DNA from: Ustilaginoidea virens | Lineage: Eukaryota; Ascomycota; Sordariomycetes; Hypocreales; Clavicipitaceae | Length of the DNA stretch: 64,000 nucleotides | Reading direction: 5' to 3' | NCBI RefSeq assembly: GCF_000687475.1 | Contig: NC_057316.1 | Span: 7,378,001 to 7,442,000, forward strand | Part shown: positions 2,017 through 62,187 of the stretch, piece by piece | Position numbering within the stretch: position 1 is the first letter of the stretch | Layout of the letters: every line of letters starts with the position of its first letter | Made by a program: the position numbers and the translations under genes | The notes under the pieces: generated by a model | What the model saw: the letters and a program-made list of their open reading frames with translations, nothing else | What the model was told of the DNA's origin: nothing | The model's database searches: none

Positions 2017-2161
2017 GCAGACGCGCTATTAGTATATATAATATTACCCTAAAGGCGTGTATATCAAATAAACCACTTTAGACCTATAGGTCCTAACTAT
2101 ACTATTGATTTAATAGAAGTAAGATATATCTTCTTTATTCGTTTATTATTTCCCTTTATAT

Positions 2162-2270
2162 ACACACCCTATATTATAATAGGTACCCTTTAATTCCTAA
2201 TACTAGTACTACCACTCTATAGCATATAGCGCTTTATATATATATCGTACTACTATATATTACCTTATAT
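2162..2270. other. 108-bp insertion present only in copy 1
   Basis: Copies 2 and 3 read from CCCTTTATAT directly into TACTTATCTCTTCGG. Copy 1 has about 108 extra AT-rich bases at this point. The extra segment is bordered by TTATAT on both sides (2156-2161 and 2265-2270), which looks like a short target-site duplication. I see no convincing terminal inverted repeat and no reading frame. Confidence 0.7.
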
Positions 2271-2280
2271 ACTTATCTCT

Positions 2281-2420
2281 TTGGACCTGCAGGTCTTAGT
2301 AAGGCTTATATACCTACCTCTTCGGACCTGCAGGTCCTAGTAAGGCTTATATACCTACCTCTTTAGACCTATAGGTCCTAATAAGGCTTGCATGCTTATT
2401 TATTCAGACCTATAGGTCCC
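2281..2420 (+). repeat. 41-bp tandem array of the palindrome, copy 1, first array
   Basis: Four units, about 41 bp apart, each with the palindrome core GGACCTGCAGGTCC or its TATA-centred form (2283, 2324, 2365 and 2405) and a TAAGGCTTATATACCTACCT spacer. A single further core lies at 2080-2093. Confidence 0.88.
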
Positions 2421-2679
2421 AATAGGCTTCTATCTATACTAGGCGAAGTGGTAATAAGGAGGAAAAGGGCAGATAGCGCTATATCTAACGATATAGCCTT
2501 TTTATATATACATGCCGCAGTTATATATGCGTGCTGCGGTTATATAGGCAGCCATAGCCGTACCGCGGCCTTATATGCTATATACCTAGTTAGATGCGCT
2601 AAATAACTAGCTGATTAACCGACTGACTAATAATTCTAATAGCGTTATTACCTTACTTCTTACTATTTACTACCTTATG

Positions 2680-2992
2680 ACCTTCTTTTTTACTAGCTTT
2701 ATTCCTAATCTTTTTATATATTACCCTTTATACTAATACTCTCCTTCTTCTTCTTTACTTTTACTCTTTTTTTTCTTTCTTATTTTTACTCTCCTTTTTC
2801 TTCTTTACTTTTACTTTCTTCCTTCTTTCTTATATATTACTCTCTTCCTTCTTTTTTATATATTACTCTCTTCCTTCTTTTTTATATATTACTCTCTTCC
2901 TTTTTTTTTATACTTTACTCTTTTCCTTCTTTTTTATATTTTACTCTCTTCCTTCTTTTTTATATTTTACTCTCCTCCTTATAGGATATAAT
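2680..2992 (+). repeat. Pyrimidine-rich tandem tract, copy 1
   Basis: Nearly pure C/T on the + strand, with a repeat of about 27 bp (TTACTCTCTTCCTTCTTTTTTATAT). A second such tract lies at 3535-3690, just before the reconstructed start codon at 3738. Equivalents are 12000-12305 and 12850-13005 (copy 2), and 51680-51995 and 52550-52690 (copy 3). CT-rich stretches just upstream of start codons are common in filamentous ascomycete promoters; the long tandem tract itself is probably just satellite. Confidence 0.7.
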
Positions 2993-3014
2993 TTAGGCTT
3001 ATATATATATTATT

Positions 3015-3240
3015 CAGACCTATAGGTCCTAATAGGGCTTGTATACTTATTTATTCAGACCTGCAGGTCCCAATAGGGCTTGTATACTTATTTATTTAGA
3101 CCTATAGGTCCCAATAGGCCTTATATGCTTATTTATTTAGACCTGCAGGACCTATAGGGCTTGCATGCTTATTTATTTAGACCTATAGGTCCTATAGGGC
3201 TTGCATACTTATTTATTTAGACCTATAGGTCCTAATAGGC
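3015..3240 (+). repeat. 41-bp tandem array of the palindrome, copy 1, second array
   Basis: Six units with the spacer GGGCTTGCATACTTATTTAT and the core AGACCTATAGGTCC or AGACCTGCAGGTCC. The next ~200 bp repeat the sequence that follows the first array (GGAGGAAAAGGGC, CGATATGGCC, GCCGCAG motifs), so arrays plus flank form a larger diverged duplication: 2281-2640 against 3015-3460. Confidence 0.88.
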
Positions 3241-3737
3241 TTCTATCTATATTAGGTAAAGCGGGAAAAAGGAGGAAAAGGGCGGATAACGCTATATCTA
3301 ACGATATGGCCTTTATATATATATATACGGCAGTTATATATGCGTGCTATAGTTATATATGCATGCCGCAGATATAAGTGCGTACTAGGGTTATGTGAGC
3401 AGCCGCTGCTATAACGCGGCTATATATATTATATACCTATATACCTATTAGGTATGCTTATTACTTCCTATAATTTACTACTACCTTACGACCTTCTTTT
3501 TTACCAGCTTAATTTATAGCCTCTTTATCTACTACTTGCTATATTTATACTCCCTTCCTTTTTCTTTACTTTTACTCTTTTCTTTTACTTTTACTTTTAT
3601 CCTTTTTTTTTTCTTTTACTCTTTTCTATCTTCCTTTTTTTTACTCTTATCCTTCTTTCTTACCCTCTATTTTCTTCCCTCTAGGATATAATTTCCCTAC
3701 TCTATCGCCGGATTATAATACCTATATTATTATATTA

Positions 3738-11057: not shown

Positions 11058-11443
11058 AAAGGCGCGTAAGCAATATATGTGATCACCTTACTATAAAGGC
11101 TGGTAGGGGATTCGGCAAAAGGCGCGCAAGTAATATATGTGACCTCACTCTAAAGGCATATAGTGCATATAGCAAAAGGCGCGTAAGTAATATATGTGAC
11201 CTCACTCTAAAGGTATGTAGGGCATACAGCAAAAGGCATGCAAGCAATATATATGACCTCACTCTAAAGGCATGTAGTGCATATAGCAAAAGGCGCGCAA
11301 GCAATATATATGACCTTACTCTAAAGGCATGCAGTGCATATAGCAAAAGGCGCGCAAGTAATACACATGACCTCACTCTAAAGGCATGCAGGGCATATAG
11401 CAAAAGGCGCGCAAGCAATACACGTGACCTTACTCTAAACACA
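11058..11443 (+). repeat. 57-bp minisatellite, copy 2
   Basis: Same array as 1630-2016 and the same number of units (386 bp). The minus-strand frame across it is a periodicity artefact. Confidence 0.9.
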
Positions 11444-11599
11444 GGCAGACGCGCTATTAGTATATATAATATTACCCTAAAGGCGTGCACATTAAATAAA
11501 CTACTTCAGACCTGTAGGTCCCAACTATACTATTGATTTAGTAGAAGTAAGATATATCTTCTTTATTCGTTTATTATTTCCCTTTATATTACTTATCTC

Positions 11600-11745
11600 T
11601 TCGGACCTGTAGGTCCTAGTAAGGCTTATATACCTACCTCTTCGGACCTATAGGTCCTAGTAAGGCTTATATACCTACCTCTTCGGACCTGTAGGTCCCA
11701 GTAAGGCTTGCATGCTTATTTATTCGGACCTGTAGGTCCTAATAG
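11600..11745 (+). repeat. 41-bp palindrome array, copy 2, first array
   Basis: Four units as in copy 1. Centres vary between TGTA, TATA and TGCA, showing single or double transitions at the same dinucleotides. Confidence 0.87.
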
Positions 11746-12334
11746 GCTTCTATCTATACTAGGCGAAGTGGTAATAAGGAGGAAAAGGGCAGATAGTGCT
11801 ATATCTAACGATATAGCCTTTTTATATATGCGTGCCGTAGTTATATATGCGTGCTGCGGTCATATAGGCAGCCGTAGCTATACCGCGGCCTTATATGCTA
11901 TATACCTAGTTAGATGCGCTAAATAACTAGCTGATTAACCGACTGACTAATAATTCTAATAGCATTATTACCTTACTTTTTACTATTTACTACCTTATGA
12001 CCTTCTTCCTTACTAGCTTTATTCCTAATCTCTTTATGCACTACCTTTTATACTAATACTCTCTTTCTTTTTTTTTACCCTTATTCTCTTTTTTCTTTCT
12101 TATTTTTACTCTCCTTTTTTTTTTTTACTTTTACTTTCTTCCTTCTTTTTTATATATTACTCTCTTCTTTCTTTTTTATATTTTACTCTCTTCCTTCTTT
12201 CTTATATATTACTCTCTTCCTTTTTTTTTATATTTTACTCTCTTCCTTCTTTCTTATATTTTACTCTCTTCCTTCTTTCTTATACTTTACTCTCCTCCTT
12301 ATAGGATATAATTTAGGCTTGTATGTATATTATT

Positions 12335-12565
12335 CAGACCTATAGGTCCCAACAGGGCTTGCATACTTATTTATTTAGACCTATAGGTCCCAATAGGGCT
12401 TATAACTTATTTATTCAGACCTACAGGTCCCAACAGGCCTTATATACTTATTTATTTAGACCTATAGGACCTATAGGGCTTATATACTTATTTATTTAGA
12501 CCTGTAGGTCCTATAGGGCTTGCATACTTATTTATTCAGACCTATAGGTCCTAATAGGCTTCTAT
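12335..12565 (+). repeat. 41-bp palindrome array, copy 2, second array
   Basis: Six units, equivalent to 3015-3240. Confidence 0.87.
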
Positions 12566-13056
12566 CTATACTAGGCGAAGCGGGAAAAAGGAGGAAAAGG
12601 GCGGATAGCGCTATATCTAACGATATAGCCTTTATATATATATATACGGCAGTCATATATGCGTGCCGTAATTACGTATGCGTGCTATAGATATAAGTGC
12701 GTACTAGGGTCACGTGAGCAGCCGCTGCCATAACGCGGCCATATATGCCATATACCTATATACCTATTAGGTACGCTTATTACTTCCTATAATTCACTAC
12801 TACCTTACGACCTTCTTTTTTACCAGCTTAATTTATAGCCTCTTTATCTACTACCTGCTATACCTATACTCCCTTCTTTCTTCCTTACCTTTACTCTTTT
12901 CTTTTATTTTTACTTTTATTTTTCTTCCTTTCCTTTACTCTTTTCTATCTTCCTTTCCTTTACTCTTATTTTTTTTTTTTATCCTTTACTTTTTTCCCTC
13001 TAGGATATAATTTCCCTACTCTATCGCCAGATTACAATACCTATATTATTATATCA

Positions 13057-15620
13057 ATGCCTCGGCCCTATAAATATTTTCATAAGGTTAGTAATATTAT
13101 AAGTGGGTATAAAGAATTCCTTGAAAATAACTTAGCTAATATAGAGCTATAGGATCATTATCCTAGTAAAATACTAGTTTATACATCGCTATATAAGCAA
13201 CGGCTCGCCCAGTCTAATATTATATCATCCTAGCAAAATGCTAGTTCGCATATCCCTATATAAGGATTAGCTCGGCCTATCCACTACTATATTATCCTTA
13301 ACGAGATGGGGGTACCTATCAATAAGCTACAGAAAATAATTTATTAGCAATATTACTCGTACATAAGATCGACCACGCCTATATCGCTGCACCTAGGCTT
13401 TTACTATACTTACCTTATAGGATAGGCAGCAAAAGCATATAAGAATATCGCTACTAGCGAAGGATTCTATATTGGCGGCAAAATGCCAATTATTAGTCAT
13501 TATATATAAGCAATATTACTCGTATGCGAGATTAACCACGCCTGTGTCGCTACATCCGGCCGTCTACTACGCCTACCTTATACGATAGTAAGTAAAAGCG
13601 CATAAGAATATCGCTACTAGCGAAAGATTTTATATTAGCAAAAAACCGCCAACGCCTATCCACTACTATATAGTTGATCTTGCGTACGAGTAATATTACT
13701 AATAGTGGTAGAATACGGCCGGGTGCAGCTATATAGGCGTCATCCTAGACGAGATAGGGGTGTCTGTAATTAAGCTGCAAAAGATAATATACTAGTAATA
13801 TTACTTATACGCAAGATCGACTACGCCTATATCGCTACATCCGGCCGTCTACTACGCCTACCTTGCCAGATAGCAAGCAAAAGCGCACGAAAATATTACG
13901 ACCAGCGAAAGAGTATAGATTGGCGGCAAAATATATATACCATTTTCGGCAATAATAAAAAGATATTTAGTTATAAAGACTTAAGGATTACGTTATAATA
14001 CCGAGCAAATGATATAAGACTATATATAGAAACCATCTACAGTAAGAAGTTAAAACCGCCGACTAGCATTAACGAGCCTATAGATATTAATACTCTACTT
14101 TAAGAGGGAAACTATCTACCTAAAAGTAGGCTGCCCCCGTCTTTGCCATATAGTATGCGCTAACTAGGTCTAATTGCCTTTATAAAAGGTTCCGACTTTA
14201 AAAATAGCGCTCAATAACTCGGCGATAATTAGACACCTCCTAGTACTCTTTACGAAACCATTAAGGGACTAAATAAAAAATATAAAGTCTGGAAGGGCAG
14301 CTTAGCTAACCCTACAGTTTTATAGCTAAATACATATATCTAAATTTTAGTTCTTCTTTTTATCGAGGGCGGTTCTTATATTAGCTAGGACCCTAATTTA
14401 GACTCGCCTACGCCAGACTTATCCGATATAGACTATTAGACCGTTTTTTTCCTATACTATACATAAAAGTCGACTGATAAACCGGAGAAGACTAATTCAT
14501 ATATCGCTATATAAGGAATACATCGGCCTATACACTACTATATCATCCTAGATGAGATTAGGGTGCCTTTTAATAACCTATAGAAAATAATATATCAGCA
14601 ATCTTATTTATACGCAAGATCGATATCGCCTATATGGCTATACCCGGCCTTTTACTATATGTACCTTATAGTATAGCAAATAAGAGCGCAGGTGTTCTTT
14701 GATGAGGTAAAGGATGTATATGGGGAAATATCTATTGCTGAATAAATTAATAAAGATAATAATAAACTAGTCCTAGATAGCGATAATAGATGAGGCTAAG
14801 TAGAGTTAGTAATGCCTACTTAGCTGCATTTAGAGCTAATTAGTAGGACTATCTATATAGTCCTCAGCCTTATCGGGAGGGATTTGGTATAATAAATAAA
14901 GACTAGGGATTAATCTAGTGGATTTCTCGCACGTTTATGCGAATATAAGCTATTATCACTAGGCTCTCTTTTCCAGGTTATTAGGATATCATTCCTATAA
15001 GCGATACTATAAGAACTAGATGCGTTGACTTTATTTACGGTTACGGAGAGAAAGACCTAAGAATATCGCAATTAGCGAAAGATTCCATATTAGCGGTAAA
15101 ATGCCAACTCTTGATAATTATATATCAGCACTATTATTTATACGCTAGATCGGCCACTCCTCTATCGCTATACCCGCCCGTTTTCTATACATACCTTACT
15201 AAATAGTAAGCAAAAGCGTATAAGAATATCGCAATCAGCAAAAGATTCCAGCTTAGCGGCAAAATGCCACCCGACTTTTAGTCATAATATATTAACTTCG
15301 TTTGCGGTTATAGAGAGAAAGACCTTAAAGTTAACTAATTAGCGAGGGGAATAGCTTTACCTAGCGCTAACGAGACTTAGGCCCCTAAGTTTAGGTCTTT
15401 TAGCAGTATCGGCTCTTTTTTTCACCACCTAACTCAATATAGAGGTATCCCTAGGCTATAGGCATTCCGTCTAGCTTATTAACGGCTAAAGAAGATAATA
15501 GCTAAAGAAGATAATAGCTAAAGAAGATAATTATTACGGCCCCTAGGCTATAGGCATTCTATCTAGCTTATTAATAGCAGAAGAAAATAATAACTAAAGA
15601 AGATAAACATTACGGCCCCT
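13057..15620 (+). pseudogene. RIP-degraded coding stretch around HAT1, copy 2
   Basis: Collinear with 3738-6300. The ATG at 13057-13059 is intact here. Iterated modules lie near 13345, 13510, 13795, 14600, 15130 and 16190. Confidence 0.6.
13935..14507 (+). pseudogene. HAT1: HAT1-like remnant, copy 2
   Basis: Same fragment as 4612-5177. Here the WTVFFLY Trp is TAG, and the IFGDNEKIF motif reads IFGNNKKIF after G-to-A changes. No length change relative to the other copies. Confidence 0.74.
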
Positions 15621-16411
15621 AGGCATCAACAATTTTCTATAGTGGCGCAACCGTATAGTGCGGGGCAACATCACTTGCCAGCTGATAGCAGCCGTCTGCC
15701 CCGCTCACCTAGACTATACACTATATATATACTATATAGCTAGGCGTGCTTCAGTCTTAGCATATAGTATGGCTTTACCTAGCTACTCTAACTTCCCCCT
15801 TCTACCTCTTATCCGCCTTAATTAGCGGTAAAATACCAACCAACTAATAGTCATTCCATATTAGTATAGGCATAAAGGAGAACTATGGTTCTCTATAAAC
15901 CTCGATAAAAACAGGCAGCCAGCCGGTGCTTTAATACGAGATTCAGTATGCTTTCTCATCACACTACGAGCCATAACTAAAGTATATATTGGCCACTCTT
16001 ACCTTATAATCTTCCTAATGCCTAACTACCACTAATCAGTATAGGTATAAAGGAGAACTACGGTTCTCTATAAACCTCGATGAAAATAGGCAGCTAGCTA
16101 GTACTCTAGTACGAGATTTAGCACGCTTTCTTATCATACTGCGAGCTATAACTAAAGTGTATATTAGCCACTTTTGAGATAATATACCAGCAATATTACT
16201 CATACGCGAGATCGACTATGCCTATATCGCTATATCCGGCCGTCTACTACACCCACCTTACCAGATAGCAAGCAAGAGCGCTAATTCTATATAGGCTGTA
16301 GGCCTTATTTAGTATACCTTTACTAATTTACCGCAAATAGATAAAAAGAGCATTCTAGAGGCTACAATATAGCGCTAGGCGATAAGGAATCCGCTCCCTA
16401 AGATATAAAAG

Positions 16412-16891
16412 GCTAAAGCGAATGGCTACTATAGCATATATATAGACTCGCTCCTTTAACTAAATATCATAGCGGCATTTAATATAGTGATTATACCCGC
16501 CTTATCTACTTACCCCTAAATAAAGGACTCCTACTATATAGAGAAGATCCGCAACGGACCTAAAAGCTACCGCTTAATTACTAAAGCTAACAGAGCCATA
16601 TTCAAGCTATACCGTACGCATAGCAGCACGATAATCAAGCCCATAACGGCCAAAGAGGAAGGTTTCGCTAAGCCTAAGCCTATCTACCTACTTACCAGCA
16701 GCAGCCCAAATAAGCAGCAGATATAGTAGCACTTTAGGGATATAGCTAAGAAGGGGAATATAAAGCCGCCTATCGTGGCGGCAGACTGGCTTACAGATAT
16801 AGCTATAGCGCAGCAAATGCGATTTAAAGATAAGTTTCTAATTAAAAACTTTAGCCGAAAGACTCTTTCTTATAAAAGTATTAACCTATAA
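16412..16891 (+). pseudogene. Unrecognised ORF of part A, copy 2
   Basis: Same ORF, same length, RIP-interrupted. The Trp in the AADWLTDIA segment is intact here (TGG) but TAG in copy 3; copy 3 in turn keeps other codons lost here. Confidence 0.5.
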
Positions 16892-16972
16892 GGCTTTCCG
16901 GAAATATAGCTTGACTATCGCAACAAGGCTATTTTAGGCCTAGTCAATCGTCTTTCCGGAAAGATAGCTTAA

Positions 16973-17690
16973 CCATCGCAATAAGGCTATTTCAGGCCTG
17001 GTCAATCCGCAATAATGACAAGCAGATATTGAAAAAAATTTTGCAGACTTAAAGTTATCGGAGGACCCATACCTGAAAATGTATAGCGTTATTCCGGAAA
17101 GAGGGCTTTATATAAGCCATTCTAATATACTAACCATCGCAATAAGGCTATTTCGGGCCTGGTTAATCTATAACAACGACGAGCAGATATTGAAAATAAT
17201 ATTGCGGACTTAAAGTTATCGGAGGACCCGTACCTAAAAATGTATAGCGTTATTCCGGAAAGAGGGCTTTATATAAGCCATTCTAACATACTGACCATCG
17301 CAATAAGGCTATTTCGGGCCTAGTTAATCCGCAATAACGACGAGCAGATATTAAAAATAATATTGCAAACTTAAAGTTATCGGAGGACCCGTACCTAAAA
17401 ATATATGGCGTCTTTCCGGAAAGAGGGCTTTATATAAGCCATTCTAATATACTGACCATCGCAATAAGGCTATTTCGGGCCTAATCAATCCGCAACAACG
17501 ACAAGCAGATATTAAAAATAATAGTACGGACTTAAAGTTGTCGAAGGACCTATACCTGAAAATGTATGGCGTCGGTCCGGAAAGAGGGCTTTATATAAGC
17601 TATTCTAATGTACTAACCGTTGCAATAAGGCTATTTCGGGCCTGGTCAATAGGCTTTCCGGGAAGAGGGCTTTATATAAGCCACTCTAGG
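16973..17690 (+). repeat. 161-bp tandem array, copy 2 (about five units)
   Basis: Same array with one more unit than copy 1. This explains the step in coordinate offset between copies 1 and 2 from 9,320 before the array to 9,480 after it. Confidence 0.85.
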
Positions 17691-18025
17691 GTCCGTTGCA
17701 ACTAAAATAGAAATAGGAAATATAGCAGAGGCAGAGGATATAAAAGCAGAGGCATTTAATAATAAGGATTTATATAAGCATAATTAATAAGATAATAAGC
17801 GATAAAAGAAGGGAGATAAGGTTATAAATGTATAATACTCCTACTAGGCATTAGCTTATAGTTAGCGGCATTAGCTCCTAGTCGGCATTAATAAGCATAG
17901 GTTTAGTGCATATATTTAAATTCGGGATGTGTATGAAGCCGACGATATGTATGTTTTATATGGTGGGACTATAAGCCTTGGTGGGGCACCTATTGGTGAC
18001 ATATACATACCGCGGGCTGCTGTAA

Positions 18026-18050
18026 GTCAGGTGACAGGCGGCCACCTGAC
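18026..18050. repeat. Perfect 8-bp-stem inverted repeat, copy 2
   Basis: Same hairpin as 8546-8570; the loop has a C where the other copies have T. Confidence 0.75.
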
Positions 18051-18140
18051 CTAAGCACGTGCAGCGAGTCGATTCCGCCACTATATATCGGTGTATCCTC
18101 GCACGTAGGAACCATTCTATACTGGCACTATTAGTGCCAT

Positions 18141-18480
18141 ATCAAGGGGTACCTATTTATATGTAGGGTCGCGCGTGTGGTATAATATACCCATTGATCA
18201 CGAAGCAAAGGTATTCTATTATTTTGCTAATAACTATCTAAGAAAGTAGGAAAGAGGCAAAAGAGAGGAATTACACAATATAGCCTCGGTTATGCGCGTG
18301 CTGTAGTCATGTGCCTTGGTGCGGTCGGGCCGGGCTGCCCGCGTGCCCTACTAGGCATAGGGGGTAAACGGGCAAAAGTGGCCATATCGTGCGCAGCGGC
18401 GCGCGGCATATCTATCGCAGTATGTGCCTAATTGGGCACCTTACGACAGCGATTCCAATAGGCACAGTTATTATAGCTAG
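18141..18480 (+). mobile_element. Truncated foldback element, copy 2
   Basis: Same truncated element at the same place in part A, so it was there before the long repeat was duplicated. Confidence 0.65.
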
Positions 18481-23345: not shown

Positions 23346-23406
23346 GGCGGCCTTTTTCCTTTTCTATTTTTTCCCCTCTAACTAATAATAGCTAGGCCGT
23401 ATATAG

Positions 23407-45665: not shown

Positions 45666-45689
45666 TTACTATACTTGATAACCTATTAG

Positions 45690-46030: not shown

Positions 46031-46074
46031 GAGAGATACCTATATACTAATAATAGGCAGAAAAAAGAAGCTAT

Positions 46075-46397
46075 TAATATTAAAATTGCTATCGTAAGAT
46101 ACCTAATTAGGCATATTACAATAGATATGCCGTATAATTAATATATATAATATAGCTACTTTTGCCCCTTTTCTTATACCTAATAGGGCATATAGGCAGC
46201 CTAGCCCAACTATACTAATATATATAATTATAATATATATAAAAAGGCTATATTATATAACTACTTTCTTTTACTTTTTTCCCCCTTTTTTAGATAATTA
46301 TTATTATTAGTAAAGTAATAGAATACTTTTACTTAGTAACCTTACAGTATATAATACTATACGTGCGACCTTATATATAACTAAATATACCGAGTTT
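46075..46397. mobile_element. Right half of a foldback element
   Basis: Runs from the central palindrome (CTATCGTAAG..TTACAATAG) through CCTAATAGGGCATATAGGCA to a decayed end ACCTTATATATAACTAAATA, matching the right arm of 43846-44412. The left arm is missing. Confidence 0.6.
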
Positions 46398-47082
46398 ATA
46401 TTAATATATATAGCAATATTATTCTCTTAGCTTATAGTATTATAGTAATTGCCTATAATTACGATAATTTAATATTAAATATTAATAAAAGCCTTTTTTT
46501 TATCTTTAAAAAAATAGGTAGAAAAGTAGGATAAATAAAATAGATAAAATAGGTAAAATAAATAAAAAAGAATAATAATAGGAAAGAATAATAATTTAGC
46601 CTTAATTAAAGAAAATCTAATAGAATAAAAAATCTAAATAAATCTAAAAGGCTAAATAATCTTAAGTAAATAATTTTAGGTAAAAGTGATTAATCTAAAT
46701 AGTTAATCTAATTAATCTAATTATAATATACTATATTTATAGTATTTTAGCTTTAATAATTAAAAATTACTTACCACCTTTTTAAATTAGAAAAAATATT
46801 TCGCATAAGTAAATATATTAGTATTATTATATTCTTTTAAACTATATTTTATATTAATAATTTATATAGTAGTATAAATACCCTAATAGAACTTTTGCAT
46901 AAAGGTAATTTCTTTATTAAAAAGAATATTTAATTATAGAAAATTATCTAATAAAATAGTAATAATATAATAAAAGGTATATAAATAAGTAGTTAGTATA
47001 CCTAGTATATAGCAAAAGTTAAAATAAAGCAATAGAATTATAATATAAAAATATATAATTATATAGATTTATATACTATTTA

Positions 47083-47102
47083 TTAGGGTTAGGTAGGGTT
47101 AA
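47083..47102 (+). repeat. Short telomere-like sequence, G-rich strand
   Basis: TTAGGGTTAGGTAGGGTTAA, about three degenerate TTAGGG units in an otherwise A/T-only stretch. Confidence 0.4.
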
Positions 47103-47939
47103 TAATAGTATTAGCATAAAGGTATAAGAAATATAATAGTAAAAAAAATTAATATTATATAGAATATATAATTATACTTTTGCAACTAAAGTATAGCTAT
47201 ATATAGCTAGCTAAAGTCAGTATATAGCTATTTATTTATATAATAAAAAAGAGAAGTACTTAGTAATTTATTAGACTAATTAATAATTTATTAGTATATA
47301 GCTAGTAATAAATATATATAAATAATAGTCTAAAAGAAATCAATAAAATAAAATAAATAAAATAAAGTAATTTACTAAATATAAACTATACTTATAATTA
47401 TTAAATAGTTTTCGTATATTAAAGTAATATAGTATATAAAAGATAAAAGTAGTAAAATAATAAAATTGCTATAAAGTAATAATATAGATAAGATATAAGA
47501 TTAAAGTATAAAAATAATTTAATATTTACTTATATATATATATATTTCTTTACTTTTCTTTTTATTATTTAGGTAGGAATATCTAAAGATTTAAATATAT
47601 AATAGTTTAATATAAAATATCCCTAGTAAAATTAATCTAATATAAATATTATAATTTTAATATAATATTATAGATATATAGCGAAATATGCATTTATAGT
47701 ATATTAAAATTAGTAATAATAAAATAGTATAATTAATTTATAATATATTATATATTTATATATAAGGGAATATATATAAGTACTAAATACTTAACTTAAT
47801 TAATAGCTATTATATAAATATAAATACTAAATACTTAATACCTTTTTTAATCTAATAATATAGCAATATATAAAGATTATTAGCAATAGATATCTAAAAA
47901 ATAATAAAATAGATAATAATAATTAATTTTATTATAATA

Positions 47940-48175
47940 TATAAACCCTATTCTAATCCTATATTAACCCTTTAGAAACCCTATTTTAACCCTATAAAAA
48001 CCCTATAGAAACCCTATATATTGACCCTATACTAACCCTATAATAACTTTATAATAACCCTATAGAAACCCTATATAAACCCTAGATTAACTTTATAGTA
48101 ACCTTATATTAACCCTATAGAAATCCTATATTAACCCTATATTAACCCTTTAGAAACCTAATATATTTACCTATA
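47940..48175 (+). repeat. Degenerate telomere-like satellite, C-rich strand
   Basis: About 20 units of 10-12 bp of the type AACCCTATATT or AACCCTATAGA. All contain AACCCTA, the C-strand core of TTAGGG, but the period is about 11 rather than 6, so it is not a plain telomere repeat. It lies directly before the junction to copy 3 and points in the opposite sense to the G-rich tract at 47083. Confidence 0.65.
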
Positions 48176-48232
48176 TAAGTATCTTAAAGTGGCTGCTAGA
48201 GCTGGAGCTATAGCCGCAGCCGCAGCCGGTAG
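48176..48232. other. GC-rich junction before copy 3
   Basis: About 55 bp rich in GCTGGAGC and GCCGCAGCC motifs with several CAG sites left intact, unlike everything around it. It ends where the repeat copy starts. The corresponding sequence left of copy 2 (9187-9190) is unrelated. Confidence 0.6.
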
Positions 48233-50574: not shown

Positions 50575-51131
50575 AAAGGCGCGCAAGCAATATATGTGAT
50601 CACCTTACTGTAAAGGCTGGCAGGGGATTCGGCAAAAGGCGCGCAAGCAATACACGTGACCTCACTCTAAAGGCATGCAGTGCATATAGCAAAAGGCGCG
50701 CAAGCAATATACGTGACCTCACTCTAAAGGCATGTAGTGTATATAGCAAAAGGCGCGCAAGCAATATATGTGACCTCACTCTAAAGGCATGTAGGGCATA
50801 CAGCAAAAGGCGTGCAAGCAATATACGTGACCTCACTCTAAAGGCATGCAGTATATACAGCAAAAGGCGCGCAAGCAATACATGTGACCTCACTCTAAAG
50901 GCATGCAGTGCATACAGTAAAAGGCGCGCAAGTAATACACATGACCTCACTCTAAAGGTATGTAGGGCATACAGCAAAAGGCGCGCAAGCAATACACGTG
51001 ACCTCACTCTAAAGGCATGCAGTGTATACAGCAAAAGGCGCGCAAGCAATACATATGACCTCACTCTAAAGGCATGTAGGGCATATAGCAAAAGGCGCGC
51101 AAGCAATATACGTGACCTTACTCTAAACACA
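50575..51131 (+). repeat. 57-bp minisatellite, copy 3 (three extra units)
   Basis: Same array, 557 bp long, that is 171 bp or exactly three 57-bp units longer than in copies 1 and 2. The long minus-strand frame here (192 codons) exists only because the array expanded. Confidence 0.9.
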
Positions 51132-51289
51132 GGCAGACGCGCTATTAGTATATATAATATTACCCTAAAGGCGTGCATATCAAATAAACTACTTCAGACC
51201 TACAGGTCCCAACTATACTATTGATTTAGTAGAAGTAAGATATATCTTCTTTATTCATTTATTATTTCCCTTTATATTACTTATCTCTT

Positions 51290-51435
51290 CGGACCTGCAG
51301 GTCCTAATAAGGCTTATATACCTACCTCTTCGGACCTGCAGGTCCTAGTAAGGCTTATATACCTACCTCTTCGGACCTATAGGTCCCAGTAAGGCTTGCA
51401 TACTTATTTATTCGGACCTATAGGTCCCAATAGGC
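51290..51435 (+). repeat. 41-bp palindrome array, copy 3, first array
   Basis: Four units. The first two keep the full GGACCTGCAGGTCC core; the last two have the TATA centre. Confidence 0.87.
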
Positions 51436-52019
51436 TTCTATCTATACTAGGCGAAGCAGTAATAAGGAGGAAAAGGGCAGATAGCGCTACATCTAACAAT
51501 ATAGCCTTTTTATATATGCGTGCCGCAGTTATATATGCGTGCTGCGGTTATATAGGCAGCTGTAGCCGTACCGCGGCCTTATATGCTATATACCTAGTTA
51601 GATGCGCTAAATAATTGGCTGATTAACCGACTGATTAATAATTCTAATAGCGTTATTACCTTACTTCTTACTATTTACTACCTTATGACCTTCTTCTTTA
51701 CTAGCTTTATTCCCAATCTCTTTATATACTACCTTTTATATTAATATTCTCCTTCTTCTTTTTTACCCTTACTCTTTTTTTTCTTTTTTATTTTTACTCT
51801 CCTTTTTCTTTTTTACTTTTACTTTCTTCCTTTTTTTTTATATATTACTCTCTTCCTTCTTTTTTATACTTTACTCTCTTCCTTCTTTCTTATATATTAC
51901 TTTTTTCCTTTTTTTTTATATTTTACTCTTTTCCTTCTTTCTTATATTTTACTCTCTTCCTTCTTTCTTATACTTTACTCTCCTCCTTATAGGATATAAT
52001 TTAAGCTTATATGCATATT

Positions 52020-52245
52020 ATTCAGACCTATAGGTCCCAATAGGGCTTGCATACTTATTTATTTAGACCTATAGGTCCCAATAGGGCTTGCAACTTATTT
52101 ATTCAGACCTGTAGGTCCTAATAGGCCTTATATGCTTATTTATTTAGACCTATAGGACCTATAGGGCTTGTATGCTTATTTATTTAGACCTATAGGTCCT
52201 ATAGGGCTTGTATGCTTATTTATTCAGACCTATAGGTCTTAATAG
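52020..52245 (+). repeat. 41-bp palindrome array, copy 3, second array
   Basis: Six units, equivalent to 3015-3240 and 12335-12565. Confidence 0.87.
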
Positions 52246-52744
52246 GCTTCTATCTATACTAGGCGAAGCGGGAAAAAGGAGGAAAAGGGCGGATAGTACT
52301 ATATCTAACGATATAGCCTTTATATATATATATGCGGCAGTTATATATACGTGCCGCAGTTACGTATGCATGCCGCAGATATAAATACGTATTAGGGTCA
52401 CGTGAGCAGCCGCTGCTATAACGCGGCTATATATGCCATATACCTATATACCTATTAGGTACGCTTATTACTTCCTATAATTTACTGCTACCTTACGACC
52501 TTCTTTTTTACCAGCTTAATTTATAGCCTTTTTATCTACTACCTGCTATACTTATACTCCCTTTTTTCTTCCTTACCTTTATTCTTTTCTTTTATTTTTA
52601 CTTTTATCTTTCTTCCTTTTTTTTACTCTTTTCTATCTTTTTTTCCTTTATTCTCATCCTTCTTTCTTACCCTCTACTTTCTTCCCTTTAGGATATAATT
52701 TCCCTACTCTATCGCCGGATTATAATACCTATATTATTATATTA

Positions 52745-55310
52745 ATGCCTCGGCCCTATAAATATTTTCATAAGGTTAGTAATATCATAAGTGGGTATAA
52801 AGAATTCCTTAAAAATAACTTAGCTAATATAGAGCTATAGGATCGTTATCCTGGCAAAATGCCAGTTTATACATCGCTATATAAGCAACGGCTCGCCCGG
52901 TCTAATATTATATTATCCTGGCAAAATGCCAGTTCGCATATCCCTATATAAGGATTAGCTCGGCCTATCCACTACCATATTATCCTTAACGAGATAGGGG
53001 TACCTATTAATAAGCTGCAGAAAATGATTTATTAGCAATATTACTTATACGTAAGATCGACCACGCCTATATCGCTACACCCAGGCTTTTACTATACTTA
53101 CCTTATAGGATAGGCAGCAAAAGCGCATGAGAATATCGCTACTAGCGAAGGATTCTATATTAGCGGCAAAATGCCAATTATTAGTCATCATACATAAGCA
53201 GTATTACTCGTACGCGAGATTAACCACGCCTATATCGCTACATCCGGCCGTCTACTATACCCACCTTACACGATAGTAAGTAAAAGCGCATAAGAATATC
53301 GCTACTAGCAAAAGATTTTATATTAGCGGGAAACCGCTAATGCCTATCTACTACTATATAGTTAATCTTACGTACGAGTAATATTGCTGATAGTAGTAGA
53401 ATACGGCCGGGTGCAGCCATATAGGCGTTATCCTGGACGAGATGGGGGTGCTTATAATTAAGCTGCAAAAGATGATATACCAGTAATATTATTTATACGC
53501 AAGATCGACTACGCCTGTATTACTACATCCGGCCGTCTACTACGCCTACTTTACTAGATAGTAAGCAAAAGCGCATAAAAATATCGCGACTAGCAAAGGA
53601 GTATAGATTAGCGGTAAAATACGTATGCTATTTTCGGCGATAACGAAAAGATATTTAGTTATAAAGACTTAAGGATTATATTGTAATACCGAGCAAATAA
53701 TATAAGACTATATGTGGAAATTATTTATAGTAAGAAGTTGAAACCGCCGATTAGTATTGACGAGCCTACGGATATTAATACTCTGCTTTAAGAGGGAAAC
53801 TATCTGCCTAAAAGTAGGCTGCCCCCGTCTTTGCTATATAGCATACGCTAACTAGGTCTAGTTGCCTTTATAAAAGGTTCTGACTTTAAAAATAGCGCTT
53901 AATAACTCGGCGATAACTAGACACCTCTTAGCACTCTTTACGAAACTATTAAGGGACTAAATAGAAAATATAAAGTCTGGAAGGGTAGCTTGGCTGACCC
54001 TATAGTTTTATAGCTGAATATATATATCTAAATCTTAATTCCTCTTTTTATCGAGGGCGGTTTCTATATTAGCTAGGACCCTAATTTAGACTCGCCTACG
54101 CTAGATTTATCCGATATAGACCGTTAGACTGTTTTTTTCCTATATTATACATAAAAGTCGATTGATAAACCGGAGAAGACTAATTCGCGTATCGCTATAT
54201 AAGGAATATATCGGCCTATATACTACCACGTTATCCTAGACGAGATTAGGATGCCTTTTAATAACCTATAGAAAATAATATATTAATAATCTTATTTATA
54301 CGCAAGATCGATATCGCCTATATGGCTATACCCGGCCTTTTACTATACGTACCTTATAGTATAGCGAATAAGAGCGTAGGTATTCTTTAACGAGGTAAAG
54401 GATATATATAGGGAAATATCTATTACTAAATAAATTAATAAAGATAATAATAAACTAGTCCCGGATAGCGATAATAGACGAGGCCAAGTAGAGTTAGCAA
54501 TACCTGCTCGGCTGCATTTAGAGCTAATTAGCGGGACTATCTATATAGTCCTCAGCCTTATCGGGAGGGGCTTAGTATAATAAGCAAAGACTGGGGATTA
54601 ATCTAATAGATTTCTTGCATATTTATACGAATATAAGCTATTATCACTAGGCTCTTTTTTCCAGGTTATTAGGATATTATTCCTATAAGCGACACCATAA
54701 GAACCAGATATATTAACTTTATTTACGGTTGTGGAGAGAAAGACCTAAGAATATCGCAACTAGCGAAAGATTCTATATTGGCGGCAAAATGCTAACTCTT
54801 GATAATTATATATCAGCACTATTACTTATACGCTAGATCGGCCACTCCTCTATCGCTATACCCGCCTATTTTCTACATATACCTTACCAAATAGCAAGCA
54901 AAAGCGCATAAGAATATCGCAACTAGCAAAGGATTCTAGCTTAGCGGCAAAATACCACCCGACTTTTAGTTATAATACATTAACTTCGTTTGCGGTTATA
55001 AAGAGAAAGACCTTAGAGTTAACTAATTAGCGAGGGGAATAGCTCTACCTAGCACTAACAAGACTTAGGCCCCTAAGTTTAGGTCCTTTAGCGGCATCGG
55101 CTCTTTTTTTCACTACCTAACTCGATATAGAGGTATCCCTAGGCTATAGGCATTCCGTCTAGCTTATTAACGGCTGAAGAAGATAATAGCTGAAGAAGAT
55201 AATAGCTAAAGAAGATAATTATTACGGCCCCTAGGCTATAGGCATTCTATCTAGCTTATTAACGGCAGAAGAAAATAACAACTAAAGAAGATAAATATTA
55301 TAGCCCCTAG
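52745..55310 (+). pseudogene. RIP-degraded coding stretch around HAT1, copy 3
   Basis: Collinear with 3738-6300. ATG at 52745-52747 is intact. Iterated modules lie near 53037, 53197, 53485, 54288, 54818 and 55880. Some modules carry GTAAGT and a GCTAACTC..ATCAG string, so they may contain intron borders, but I could not fix the exon structure. Confidence 0.6.
53618..54185 (+). pseudogene. HAT1: HAT1-like remnant, copy 3
   Basis: Same fragment, with the best preserved first motif (YAIFGDNEKIFSYKDL) and an intact VWKGSLADP segment. It ends at about the KPEKT motif, where the similarity to HAT1 stops in all three copies, so the truncation predates their duplication. Confidence 0.75.
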
Positions 55311-56099
55311 GCATTAATAATTTTCTATAGTGGCGCAACCGCATAGTGCGGGGCAACATCACTTGCCAGCTGATAGCAGCCGTCTGCCCCGCTCACCTAG
55401 ACTATACACTATATATACACTATATAGCTAGGCGTGCTTCAGTCTTAGCATATAGTATGGCTTTACCTAGCTGCTCTAACTTCCCCCTTCTACCTCTTAT
55501 CCGCTTTAGTTAGCGGTAAAATACCAACTAACTAATAGTCATTCTATATTAGTATAGGCATAAAGGAGAACTACGGTTCTCTGTAAACCTCGATAAAAAT
55601 AGGCAGCTAGCCGGTACTCCGGTATAAGATTCAACACGCTTTCTCGTTATACTACGAGCTATAACTAAAATGCATATTGGCTACTTTTACCTTACAATCT
55701 TCCTAATGCCTAACTACCACTAATCAGTATAGGTATAAAGGAGAACTATGGTTCTCTATAAACCTCGATAAAAACAGGCAGCTAGCTAGTGCTTTAGTAC
55801 GAGATTCAGTACGCTTTCTTATTACGCTGCGAGCCATAACTAAAGTGTACATTAGCTACTCTTGAGATAATATACTAGTAATATTACTCGTACGCGAGAT
55901 CGACTACGCCTGTATCGCTGTATCTAGCCGTCTACTATGCCTACCTTGCTAGATAGCAAGCAAAAGCGCTAATTCTATATAGGCTGCAGGCCTTACTTAG
56001 TATACCTTTACTAATTTACCGCAAATAGACAAAGAGAGCATTCTAAAGGCTACAATATAGCGCTAGGCGACAAAGAATCCACTCCCTAGGATATAAAAG

Positions 56100-56579
56100 G
56101 CTAAAGCGAACGGCCACTATAGTATATATATAGACTCGCTCCTTCAACTAAATATCATAGCGGCATTTAATATAGTAATTATACCCGCCTTATCTACTTA
56201 CCCCTAAATAAAAGACTCCTACTATATGGAGAAGATCCGCAACGGACCTAAGAGCTACCGCTTAATTGCTAAGGCCAACGGAGCCATATTTAAGCTATAC
56301 CGCACGCGTAGCGGCACGACAATCAAGCCTATAACGGCCGAGGAGGAAGGTTTCGCCAAGCCTAAGCCTATCTACCTGCTTACCAGCAGCAGCCCAGACG
56401 AGCAGCAGATATAGTAGCGCTTTAGGGATATAGCTGAGAAGGGGAATATAGAGCCGCCTATCGTAGCAGCAGACTAGCTTACAGATATAGCCATAGCGCA
56501 GTAAGTGCGATTTAAAGATAAGTTTCTAATTAAAAACTTTAGCCGAAAGACTCTTTCTTATAAAAGTATTAACCTATAA
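56100..56579 (+). pseudogene. Unrecognised ORF of part A, copy 3 (best preserved)
   Basis: A frame of about 160 codons, open for 62 codons from ATG 56226 to TAG at 56412. It reads as a normal globular protein: KIRNGPKSYRLIAKANGAIF, then KLYRTRSGTTIKPITAEEE, then KPKPIYLLTSSSPDEQQ, and after two TAG codons RFRDIAEKGNIEPPIVAAD and a KDKFLIKNFSRKTLSYKS tail. The upstream half (from 56100) is coding-like but holds one TAA. Not recognised; no signal peptide, membrane segment or metal-binding motif seen. The frame differs from that of the HAT1 fragment, so it is probably a separate gene or exon. Confidence 0.55.
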
Positions 56580-56660
56580 GGCTTTCCGGAAATATAGCTT
56601 GACTATCGCAATAAGGCTATTTTAGGCCTAGTTAATCGTCTTTCCAAAAAGATGGCTTAA

Positions 56661-57378
56661 CCGTCGCAATAAGGCTATTTCGGGCCTGGTCAATCCGCAA
56701 TAATGACGAGCAGATATTGAAAAAAATTTTGCAGACTTAAAGTTATCGGAGGACCCATACCTAAAAATATATAGCGTCGTTCCAGAAAGAGGGCTTTATA
56801 TAAGCCATTCTAATATACTAACCATCGCAATAAGGCTATTTCGGGCCTGGTTAATCCGCAATAACGACGAGCAGATATTGAAAATAATATTGCGGACTTA
56901 AAGTTGTCGGAGGACCCATACCTGAAAATATATAGCGTCGTTCCAGAAAGAGGGCTTTATATAAGCCATTCTAACATACTGACTATCGCAATAAGGCTAT
57001 TTCGGGCCTAGTTAATCCGTAATAACGACGAGCAGATATTGAAAATAATATTGCGGACTTGAAGTTGTCGGAGGACCCGTACCTGAAAATATATAGCGTC
57101 TTTCCGGAAAGAGGGCTTTATATAAGCCATTCTAATATACTGACTATCGCAATAAGGCTATTTCGGGCCTAATCAATCCGCAATAACGACGAGCAGATAT
57201 TGAAAATAATATTGCAGACTTAAAGTTGTCGAAGGACCTATACCTGAAAATATACGGCGTCGGTCCGGAAAAAGGGCTTTATATAAGCTATTCTAACGTA
57301 CTAACCGTTGCAATAAGGCTATTTCGGGCCTGGTTAATAGGCTTTCTAGGAAGAGGGCTTTATATAAGCCACTCTAAG
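56661..57378 (+). repeat. 161-bp tandem array, copy 3 (about five units)
   Basis: Same unit number as copy 2; offset of 39,688 on both sides of the array. Confidence 0.85.
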
Positions 57379-57713
57379 GTCCGTTACAACTAAAATAGAA
57401 ATAGGAAATATAGCAGAGGCAGAGGATATAAAAGCAGAGGCATTTAATAATAAGGATTTATATAAGCATAATTAATAAGATAATAAGCAATAAAAGAAGG
57501 GAGATAAGGTTATAAATGTATAATACTCCTACTAGGCATTAGCTTATAGTTAGCGGCATTAGCTCTTAGTCGGCATTAATAAGCATAGGTTTAGTGCATA
57601 TATTTAAATTCGGGATGTATATGAAGCCGATGATGTGTGTGTTTTATATGGTGGGACCATAAGCCTTGGTGGGGCACCTATTGGTGACACATACATACCG
57701 CGGGCTGCTGTAA

Positions 57714-57738
57714 GTCAGGTGATAGGCGGCCACCTGAC
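57714..57738. repeat. Perfect 8-bp-stem inverted repeat, copy 3
   Basis: Same hairpin as 8546-8570, stems unchanged. Confidence 0.75.
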
Positions 57739-57828
57739 CTAAGCATATGCAGCGAGTCGATTCCGCCACTATATATCGGTGCATCCTCGCACGTAGGAAC
57801 CATTCTATACTGGCACTATTGGTGCCAT

Positions 57829-58168
57829 ATTAAGGGGTACCTATTTATATATAGGGTCGCGCGTGTGGTATAATATACCCATTAATCACGAAGCAAAGGT
57901 ATTCTATTATTTTGCTAATAACTATCTAAGAAAGTAGGAAAGAGGCAAAAGAGAGGAATTACATAATATAGCCTCGGTTATGCGCGTGCTATAGTCACGT
58001 GCCTTAGCGCGGTCGGGCCGGGCTGCCCGCGTGCCCTACTAGGCATAGGGGGTAAACGGGCAAAAGTGGCTATATCGTGCGCAGCGGCGCGCGGCATATC
58101 TATCGCAGTATGTGCCCAATTGGGCACCTTACGATAGCGATTCCAACAGGCATAGTTATTATAGCTAG
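57829..58168 (+). mobile_element. Truncated foldback element, copy 3
   Basis: Same truncated element as at 8661 and 18141. Confidence 0.65.
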
Positions 58169-58354
58169 GCTAATGCAACTACCGATTCCAATATTCTGTT
58201 TCCAGCAAGGTAGATATCGTTTAGTATACCTAATTATATCAGGCCTTTATATATAGCGCGCTATATATCGCCGCGCTACGCCGAGCACCGCCGCTATATC
58301 CGCATCCTCGTCGTGCAGTAGATGGCTCGCTTATTCCTACTGCTCTCCCTCTTC

Positions 58355-59005
58355 GAAGCATGTATATAGGTTAGGTAGCTAGGGCACTCGTATATACTAT
58401 ATTGCTGAGATATATGGTAATGCCCGATCGCGGCCCTTGACCTCTCACCGGCCTCTTTCCCTTGGATAAGGCACCTACCTACGTGCGTAGGGCAGCGTAG
58501 CCATGTAGGTAACCCTCCTATATGCATAGACCAGGTGAAGCTTCGGACCTGCAGGTTTGAACTGGCCACCTAGTGCCGCCCCCATTAGCAGCGCCCGTCC
58601 CATCGGCTATATAACCAGTCTTAGCCTAGCCGGTCTTATCCTAGCCGACCTTTCAATATACCACCCTAGTAATAGTAGCTCACCTATAAAGCCTAAAGTG
58701 GGTTTTAGTAGGGGCTGGTAGACTTGGCCTTAGAGTTATCGTAGGAGGGGATAAAGCCTGCCGCCTATCCCCGACTAACCACTCCTCCCTTATAGCTGCC
58801 TCTACGGACTAACCGAGCGAAGGTTGCCTAGTATATAGGCCAGTATAGGCCTGTCTAGACCTGCACGTCCGAACCAGCCTCCCAGCGTCGCGTGTGCTAA
58901 TATAGCCTAGAGCAAGCAATGCACTACGGAGATACTACACTACCGTATAGGGTTCCTATATTCGCGAACGACCGTATGCTCTTCGTGTGTAGGCTCGCTT
59001 AGGCC
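58355..59005. other. Start of part B, noncoding, copy 3
   Basis: Equivalent of 18667-19318, with the palindrome at about 58541-58560 and a decayed one near 58855. Minus-strand frames here are not conserved in copy 2. Confidence 0.5.
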
Positions 59006-59515
59006 TATTCGGACCTGTAGGTCCTAACCGGCTACGCACGCCACCGGGTCCCAACACAGCCTATGTTATAGAATCTACTATGGACGCACTATGATATATG
59101 GCTTGTGTCGGCCCACGACCGCGGTAACCTTCGGCATAGGCTAGCATATGCTAGCACAGACCTGTTCGGACCTGCAGGTCCCAACCGGCTACGCAGGCCA
59201 CCAGATCCCAATATAACCTATATTATGGAATCTACTATGGATGCACCATGATATATGGCTTGTGTCGGCCCACGACTGCGGTAACCTTCGGCATAGGCCA
59301 GTATATACTAGCGTAGACCTGTTCGGACCTATAGGTCCCAACCGGCCACACAGGCCACCAGATCCTAATATAACCCATGTCATGGAATCTACTATAGACG
59401 CACTATGATATATGGCTTATATCGGCCTACGACTGCGGTAACCTTCGGCATAGGCCAGCATATGCTAGCGCAGACCTATTCGGACCTATAGGTCCCAACC
59501 GGCCCCTCAGACTAC
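59006..59515 (+). repeat. 158-bp tandem array carrying the palindrome, copy 3
   Basis: Same array and same number of units; palindromes near 59007, 59164, 59321 and 59478. From 59516 to 59840 (19831-20150 in copy 2) I see no supportable gene; a 60-codon frame at 19921 is not conserved in copy 3. Confidence 0.87.
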
Positions 59516-59937
59516 TATACATATGGAAGTCATAAGCACTAGAGTGTATAAGTAATGGGCAGAGGATGACGCGCGAGCCCTAATAAGATAGCCTATATAC
59601 TAGTAGGCATAGTGGTGCGGCTCTACTGGTGCGGCTCTACTACTATAAGTCCTGCAGTAGGGCTAGCAACTCCTAGTGCGGGGAAAAGCGGGGTATGCCT
59701 TATAATTCAGTGCGCCGACTTACCTAATACTCTTGAGTTACTACAGAATCATATAGGAACTGCTATCGTAGCTTGTTTACTTTTATTATAGATAATGGAG
59801 AATTATACATACACAATCTGACTATATTTCATCTTAATACCTACTTTTTTTTTTTTTTTTTTCCTATAAATTCGTTCTTCCTTTTTCTTCCTTCCTTTCT
59901 TTTTTCTTCCCCCTTTATCCCTCCTTTTTTCTTTTTT

Positions 59938-61050
59938 ATGCCAACAACCAAAATGGATATAATAGCTTAACCTACCTCGGCTGCAGATACTATAAAATAC
60001 GGTATAGAGAAAGAGTTGATTATCCCTATAGTATTATTTAGCGCATTCGACGAGCTATTTACGAACCTTTATGCGTTAACCTATAGGAGGATCACTAGTA
60101 GACTAGACGCTTAAACCCATCTGCCCGATAGGCTTACCGATAAAACCATCCAAATAGAAGACCAGGACGCTCTCGTGTAAGTATCGCCCGCGCAGCCATA
60201 CTATAACTATACATACAACAGATTTATCTCTAGGTTCCTATACTGCACTAGTATATAAGACGGTAGCTCCTGCGATCAGTATTTACTCTATAGCCGCTAC
60301 TGCCTCAAAAAGAGTGAATTAATTATACGCCAGGAGATATTAGCCGGCAAATACCTCACGCTCCTCAATATAATACGTAATAGAACCAGCCTTTAGAAGC
60401 TAATCGATAGTGCCGCCGCCCGCCCGCCTAGCACCAACGAAATATTAATAATAACGATAACGCTAGCGTTCTAGTCTATAGTAGCTATATTCCTCCGATA
60501 CTTCGCGATGGCCAAAAGACGCTTACGAACGCTATATATCGAGGCGATAGAGTTCAAAAAGGCTATATACTAGAAGCATTTTTTGCATATTATAAACCCT
60601 TCCATATACCGTCCCTATCCAGCCTATTAGGATTTTAAAAGGGATATCGCCGAGTCTTTTTACTAGTAGCATTAGGAGTGCTTTAGCCGACCACACCCTA
60701 TATAATCACTCCGCTATATCCCTCCCCCCCCCGGCAGTATCGCTTCTTCCCGCACCAGCAGTATCGCATCCCCCCCCCCCTTACCCACCAATAGCATACT
60801 CTACAATATAGATAAGGATTAGGAATTCATAAAAATGGGCACTAGCACCTATTCTAGCGCCTATAACAACGGCGACGCAAAAGATGCCGCATACGATAAC
60901 TGTAGCAATAGCTATTTTGAAGATAGATTCTACTTCGAAGATAATATCATATTATAGGAGTATAATTTAACTTATGAGTATTAATGATACGAATATACGC
61001 CGCTAGGCGCGCAGCAGTAGGAGGTGATTTGCTTTTTTTATTTTTATTAA
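59938..61050 (+). pseudogene. Unrecognised 371-codon gene of part B, copy 3
   Basis: Same gene with intact ATG (59938-59940) and exactly the same length as copy 2, frame included. Some codons that are stops in copy 2 are intact here (for example the CAG after IED near residue 70 and the CAG of the IIRQEI segment), and the reverse is also true, so the two copies were mutated independently. Confidence 0.6.
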
Positions 61051-62187
61051 CTACTAATGGGAAACATAAGGTAGCGTTTTATTTTATTTTTTTCGTTTTT
61101 AGCTAATACCAGGGGGGGGGGGCTATATTACTCGGCATATAACTCAGGTGCATTCGCAGGCATTTTGCTTTACATTTTATCGAACGACTATAGGGGGATA
61201 TATTTTTACTTAGCATGGCATTACGTTAGACGCAAACACACAGCATAGATAGATGCATACCTATATAGCTAACCACAAATTGAGAGTATGTCACTATATA
61301 TATGCGCCGTAATACGATAAGCTATACGGGCGGTAGGGTAGTTCAGACCTGCAGGTCCCAACCGGGCCGTATAGTCGCACTATAGCATCGCCCCCCAACC
61401 TACCAAGGTTACATATATATGCCATAGTGACTACTATATAAGCAGCGTGGCCCAACCCACGTGCCTAATTACGTTCTAACGGGGAGGGGGGTATTAGATA
61501 TCGGAAACCTAGGTTAATCCAAAACCTCAGTCTAATATAATTCCGACCCGATAATCCTCTTCTCCCTCTTCCCCAGTAGGCTCTATATAGTAGTTCATCA
61601 TCGTATATAAGAATAAGATATATCAATCATTACGACTTAACCGGGGGGGCATAGTAGTCAGAGTCTTCTAGTAACGTAGAGAACGCCTACCGATACATAT
61701 AGTCTCTACGACCACCTACTCTATAAAGACCTATATACCAACCTCCCTAACAGTAAAGCTTGCCAGCTTTATTCCAAGCTGCCAGAATACAGAGGGGGGC
61801 ATCGCAGCAGATAGCACCTTATAATAGTACATAGCGCGTGGCATTATAAATACTTTCTATAGAACCTATAGCGCTATAGCCCTATATCTCGCCTTTATAT
61901 CTACTCTTACCCTTCTTATCCCTTCTAGTCAGTCAGTAGTATAGAAATACCATTAGAGTATTGCTTATCACTATAGTCTATAGAGAAGGTACTATTACTA
62001 TTTCATAGGATCTATATATTGTAGATAATAAAGCACAATAGAATGGCGATAAAGTAGGCGAGCAGGAGAACCGGCTTAGACTTATAGGTCCGAACCAAAA
62101 CCACCCGCGATTTACAGCTATGCACCTAACCTTATCGCACGTGCTTGCCTATTTAGCAGCGGAAGCGAGGCCTATTAAAGCAGAGAA
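61051..62187. other. Intergenic part of B with two palindromes, copy 3
   Basis: Equivalent of 21361-22496. Palindromes near 61340 and 62071, a G-run near 61113. No frame to support. Confidence 0.5.

Follow-up and report, generated by a model that had tools for sequence, protein, structure and literature searches.

A near-palindromic 22-bp motif of a subtelomeric repeat unit in Ustilaginoidea virens, a possible recognition site for a dimeric DNA-binding protein

Introduction

Short palindromes regarded as mobile have been described in fungal mitochondria (PMC7218506). As presented in that article, Pst1 of Neurospora crassa, MUSE1 of Podospora, the GC clusters of yeast and the (A)n/(T)n repeats of Fusarium, all located in mitochondrial DNA (mtDNA), are short, dispersed, mostly palindromic and non-coding. 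In these respects they resemble the motif of about 22 bp analyzed here, which recurs in a 64,000-nucleotide stretch of the Ustilaginoidea virens genome (C1:7,378,001-7,442,000, hereafter the window). The mtDNA palindromes are mitochondrial and mobility was argued for several of them from presence/absence, whereas the motif is nuclear and subtelomeric and is without shown presence/absence variation. An earlier reading of the window made from its letters (the original prediction) had likened the motif to the Neurospora PstI palindromes; both hold CTGCAG, but the PstI palindromes are mitochondrial and the likeness is one of analogy, by which the motif would at most work as they do.

A chromosome-end repeat with a helicase-type gene, as found here, is also described in the subtelomeric DNA of Metarhizium anisopliae, where the gene is RecQ-like. 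The gene of the U. virens unit belongs instead to the SNF2 family, as judged from an intact relative, and the accessible text on the Metarhizium repeat mentions no palindrome. Repeated sequence within introns, again as here, is a feature of fungal introner-like elements and repeated stwintrons; in these the intron itself is the repeat, whereas the copies of the U. virens motif share 22–28 bp and lie mostly outside introns. Neither the motif in U. virens nor subtelomeric palindromes associated with repeat-induced point mutation (RIP) and introns are described among the open-licence PMC matches listed. A nuclear motif that is tied to one chromosome-end unit, sits in introns and spacers and occurs once, perfect, in unique DNA would allow a sequence that has moved to be distinguished from one that is bound or merely carried along. 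Our tentative reading is that a dimeric DNA-binding protein which acts on the subtelomeric unit would recognize these sites.

Results

The motif, TTCRGACCTGCAGGTCCNAAC, is near-symmetric, with the half-site GGACC/GGTCC, and has a frequent version, TTCGGACCTGCAGGTCCCAAC, that is asymmetric at ±8. It carries about 28 bits of information across 22 positions and declines to background about 16 bp off centre. With up to two mismatches from GACCTGCAGGTC, the window contains 54 cores: 28 in 41-bp arrays, eight in 157-bp arrays, two in a 118-bp array and 16 single. The 20-mer, searched with up to three mismatches, matched the window 25 times and none of 100 shuffles. The centres of the 54 cores read TATA (28), TGCA (14), TGTA (10) or TACA (2), and since TGCA contains the sole CpA/TpG steps of the core, the other centres look like products of RIP. 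The original prediction had given coordinates that are correct within a few bases and had recognized TGTA and TATA as decayed centres. The perfect 20-bp palindrome that it announced has no exact copy in the window or in the 37.16-Mb genome, and the pair at ±8 is complementary in 5/19 contexts, with 5.1 expected by shuffling. The YAACCGG that it expected to follow as a rule was seen, as NYAACCGG, directly after 11 of the 54 cores, and the outer AACCGG arm has no significant orientation bias (12 versus 6, one tie).

The genome of U. virens UV-8b was searched over 37,158,136 bases in eight contigs. C1 terminates in TTAGGG repeats at 7,466,040, which places the window 24–88 kb from the telomere. 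The degenerate scan that the original prediction had recommended, made with a 12-bp core, returned 392 matches against eight for a reversed control, a distribution far from random; the 50 matches listed are all on C1. On this contig, these 50 matches and the sites of the longer pattern GACCTRYAGGTCYRA (all C1 sites listed) are confined to the terminal regions, 53.1 kb at the start and 86 kb at the far end. Exact TGCA cores number 77 in the genome; among the 50 listed, 47 are at most 170 kb from an end. The other three are interior, and the outer motif is missing from C5:4810129 and from C5:952232, the latter in what reads as coding sequence. Among the matches listed, all but three core sites are thus near chromosome ends. 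The full list for the 22-mer with up to two mismatches comprises 38 genome sites (control, 0), of which 37 are near the ends of C1, C2, C6 and C7, and the three site lists combined place the motif at no fewer than 9 of the 14 chromosome ends. The remaining site, C3:909,407-909,428, is the sole interior 22-mer site and the sole perfect one. Its locus is unique in the genome except for low-complexity matches, is not RIP-like (TpA/ApT of 0.61 versus 1.36–1.75 in window segments) and is flanked by two genes, named by eye as DnaJ-like and Med10-like, whose 3' ends face it.

Most copies of the motif derive from tandem arrays and from apparently recent duplication of the subtelomeric unit. The window contains three full or partial copies of this unit, so that the dozens of sites originally reported are borne out in number, with 54 cores, and are not independent of each other. 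The satellite-bearing part at 11058-24309 is 92% identical over 13 kb to that at 50749-64000, a third copy is present at the left end of the window, and unit copies on C1 are spaced by about 39.7 kb. The 157-bp array has 20 matches in the genome (two partial). The stretch preceding the SNF2 gene has 10 full matches and one fragment, and the one around 21655 has 18 that are complete or almost so, with seven fragments. Within the satellite-rich unit the motif occupies the 41-, 157- and 118-bp arrays as well as single places, which amounts to about 18 independent positions, or fewer if both 41-bp arrays have a common origin; the number of units in the 118-bp and 157-bp arrays varies among copies. 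All sites outside the SNF2 gene are given below with their equivalents in the window.

2076 to 2097, plus strand: single site; equivalents 11504-11525 and 51192-51213
2264 to 2433, plus strand: first type of 41-bp tandem array, each unit with one motif; equivalents 11584-11753 and 51272-51441
2980 to 3253, plus strand: second type of tandem array, 40/41 bp; equivalents 12330-12565 and 52005-52253
18853 to 18874, plus strand: single site; equivalent 58541-58562; in 19/20 unit copies, other sequence in the 20th
19165 to 19186, plus strand: single imperfect site; equivalent 58853-58874; in 20/20 copies
19316 to 19815, plus strand: four motifs in a 157-bp tandem array; equivalent 59004-59503
21650 to 21671, plus strand: single site; equivalent 61341-61362
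22383 to 22404, plus strand: single imperfect site; equivalent 62074-62095
33260 to 33281, plus strand: single site upstream of the SNF2 gene, candidate coding or noncoding; 10/10 copies
33502 to 33523, plus strand: single site upstream of the SNF2 gene, candidate coding or noncoding; 10/10 copies
34122 to 34143, plus strand: single imperfect site; 10/10 copies
34271 to 34292, plus strand: single site; 10/10 copies
34486 to 34507, plus strand: single site; 10/10 copies

The unit copies differ from one another nearly only by transitions, which account for all 132 differences in a gap-free 1,401 bp and for 392/399 in 4.9 kb with 15 gap columns. A cytosine-poor block at 44298-48213, after which the next unit starts at 48.2 kb, matches the 3.9 kb adjoining the C1 telomere with 99.3% identity and a difference of 0.41%. 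This block looks like a former chromosome end that is now internal, so units seem to have been added at telomeres; together with the near-exclusive transitions, the 0.41% difference suggests that the duplication is recent and that RIP made most of the difference.

No empty site was found among 9–20 recent copies of the unit, one rearranged copy aside. The five sites upstream of the SNF2 gene are kept, RIP changes allowed, in all 10 copies, and the intron-1 site is present in each of the nine copies that reach intron 1. Site 18858 is retained in 19 of 20 unit copies and site 19170 in all 20; in the exception, copy L021, a different sequence occupies 18858 and a rearrangement breakpoint lies immediately before 19170. 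Because the sites are common to the unit copies compared, recent movement of the motif is unlikely; the copies being recent themselves, the lack of empty sites argues against recent movement only. Target-site duplications were no more frequent than in controls (best 3/19 contexts, control mean 3.2), and no shared element edge surrounds the motif. A miniature inverted-repeat transposable element, with terminal inverted repeats and a target-site duplication, was rejected, there being no duplication above control. Nor do unit copies generally break at the motif: of 10 breakpoints outside arrays, one has a motif within 30 bp. Inspection by eye had suggested a Helitron-like CTRR end or a 3' splice-like AG after the palindrome, which found no support column by column. 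The original prediction had looked to presence/absence variation, to a non-random distribution and to absence from the exons of active genes; the distribution is indeed non-random, supported exons are free of the motif, and presence/absence variation was not seen in the copies compared.

The motif is also present in all three introns of a RIP-broken gene carried by the unit.

34630 to 40633, plus strand: RIP-broken SNF2-family gene; exons 34630-35461 (5' end provisional), 35566-37541, 37811-39609 and 39724-40633; no core in the exons
35462 to 35565, plus strand: intron 1; one motif, 35478-35499
37542 to 37810, plus strand: intron 2; two 118-bp units and four cores (37599, 37633, 37717, 37751); unit number varies among copies
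39610 to 39723, plus strand: intron 3; two cores (39640, 39671)

The gene pieces of the window have no Pfam match above the cut-off, so the assignment to SNF2 is taken from the one close relative found, P0001 (1,340 aa, source lgn), which is 74% identical to the reading of the window and carries the Pfam domain SNF2-rel_dom. More distant relatives carry names from Trichoderma and Paramyrothecium. P0001 is continuous over introns 2 and 3, where genome matches to it are interrupted, and may stem from spliced RNA, from an intron-aware prediction or from a gene without these introns. Intron 1, which lies beyond P0001 and in which the site at 35485 had been correctly placed, is backed by reading phase and by the splice signals GTACGT, ACTAACTAAC and CCCTAG, mostly retained in the copies. 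At the donor of intron 3, the window and two copies have ATAAG, and another copy has GTAAG. Fragments related to 35697-40099 of this gene are found in chromosome interiors at C4:4.72 Mb, C5:4.85 Mb and C2:0.31 and 0.42 Mb, as remnants of this family or of a related one.

With up to one mismatch and a free centre, introns 1, 2 and 3 hold one, four and two cores, respectively, and there is no core in the predicted exons or in 24.3-33.2 kb; the exon sequence to which the intact P0001 aligns, 4,020 bp, is likewise without one. The excess in introns (5/18 contexts, p ~1e-4) was obtained with a rough denominator, 9.2-24.3 kb being taken as non-coding. Sites 33265 and 33507 lie in one forward frame with few stops. 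Since 33.0-34.6 kb, with five sites, may be coding, the original statement that no coding frame contains the motif is supported in part: it stands for the P0001-covered sequence, the other predicted exons and 24.3-33.2 kb and may not hold for 33265 and 33507.

The symmetry of the motif does not extend into a longer RNA stem. A hairpin beyond ±11 was rejected (own arms 12.05, swapped arms 12.86, permutation p 0.88), and the pairs from ±7 to ±16 displayed no excess of pairing at p<0.05 over 19 contexts. The ±1 positions do correlate (p 0.0025), as is predicted by RIP at both CpA steps; apart from them there are no compensatory stem changes, which led us to reject a structured RNA element, and an Rfam scan gave no match at gathering thresholds. 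An introner-like element was dismissed as well, the three SNF2 introns being alike, by eye, in the motif only.

Gal4-type zinc-cluster proteins bind CGG-N10-CCG. Such a site was rejected: position +8 is C in seven, G in six, T in four and A in three of 20 aligned rows (two contexts placed on sister array units, 22382 six bases off), and with this mixture the CCG triplet is not conserved. The exact pattern TTYRGACCTRYAGGTCYRAACC is absent from viral contigs, among which records near this genome may be lacking, and no relative of P0001 occurs among 51 pattern matches in viral contigs. A literature search for ACCTGCAGGT gave no title on a fungal repeat among the matches listed.

Discussion

The motif would be an old, built-in, dyad-symmetric recognition sequence of one U. 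virens subtelomeric repeat unit, in which about 18 places, none in supported exons, held it before the unit spread. The 41-, 157- and 118-bp arrays arose by tandem duplication, whole units multiplied by duplication between chromosome ends, and RIP eroded the core's only CpA/TpG step, TGCA becoming TGTA, TACA or TATA. The early presence at these places, array duplication, unit spread and RIP erosion are shown by the data or follow closely from them. We further infer that the motif may act as DNA, bound by a homodimeric protein working on the unit or on subtelomeres in silencing, replication or recombination control. What favours a DNA site read by a dimer is that the motif is kept as sequence rather than structure and is tied to one unit. 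The protein binding site of one element family, offered in the original prediction, is thereby narrowed to one subtelomeric repeat family, the binding being putative.

Several observations weigh against this recognition site. The sole perfect interior copy is between two 3' gene ends, outside any promoter, and the density in introns is above what a plain spacer site would need. RIP is not kept away from the centre of the core: 33/64 cells there have become TATA, compared with 65/224 for TGCA elsewhere (p 0.0015 by cell and 0.055 by site), and a second region gives 12/18 versus 40/90 (p 0.12), in counts that omit 4/20 A copies and 1/10 B copies. If anything, the centre is hit by RIP more often than other TGCA sites, with weak support per site. 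In addition, 28 bits is long for the usual fungal factor site, and we know of no binding protein for the motif.

A somewhat less probable explanation is that the sites are fossils of an ultrashort palindromic mobile element of about 22–28 bp, which would have entered introns and spacers within the unit, and on rare occasions other DNA, before amplification. In common with mobile palindromes, the motif is nearly palindromic and dispersed in non-coding DNA, with about 18 unrelated contexts and none in supported exons, and such an old mobile word is favoured by the lone perfect copy, interior and in unique sequence, and by the intron excess, rough as its denominator is. Yet an insertion signature is missing, with no presence/absence variation in the copies compared (the rearranged one excepted), target-site duplications at the control level and no common edge, and 37 Mb contain a single interior site with the full motif at up to two mismatches. 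The small mobile element of the original prediction keeps the interior copy and the intron excess in its favour and shows no marks of insertion. On balance, the dimer site appears slightly ahead of the mobile word. Considerably less probable is a functionless by-product, an early minisatellite-like word spread within the unit when replication slipped and switched templates at chromosome ends. The satellite richness of the unit would fit this origin, as would the presence of the motif in three kinds of tandem array, two of them (118 and 157 bp) variable in unit number, but the single sites have no longer shared flanks, copy breakpoints are mostly away from the motif and the perfect interior copy is left without explanation. 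Least probable is an RNA hairpin element serving as a splicing aid, an introner-like intron or an RNA processing signal: the motif is in every SNF2 intron and its core can be folded into a stem with a four-base loop, and against this stand the lack of covariation beyond fixed letters, of longer stems and of Rfam matches, the dissimilarity of the introns otherwise and the 36/54 cores that are held by the 41- and 157-bp arrays.

A bolder proposal, which we consider rather doubtful, is that the motif would be a nuclear ultrashort palindromic element of about 22 bp, self-spread in the telomere-linked SNF2 unit and once in the interior, or else an address tag for the unit's SNF2-type ATPase or its partner. 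If mobile, it would be the nuclear equivalent of the fungal mitochondrial palindromes. Further sequenced strains of U. virens named in PMC13233505, P1 and iJS62 among them, offer a natural comparison of filled and empty sites.

Two further parts of the unit deserve mention. A long, repeat-rich forward frame at 25400-33000 has few stops for RIP-mutated DNA; no homologue was found for its 3' part, nor, at E 0.001 among the 7,994 candidates listed and scored, for the long frame that is open from 28.8 to 34 kb. A segment of about 210 bp (33646-33857), away from motif sites, has an 81% relative in the interior at C7:623013-623223 (L050).

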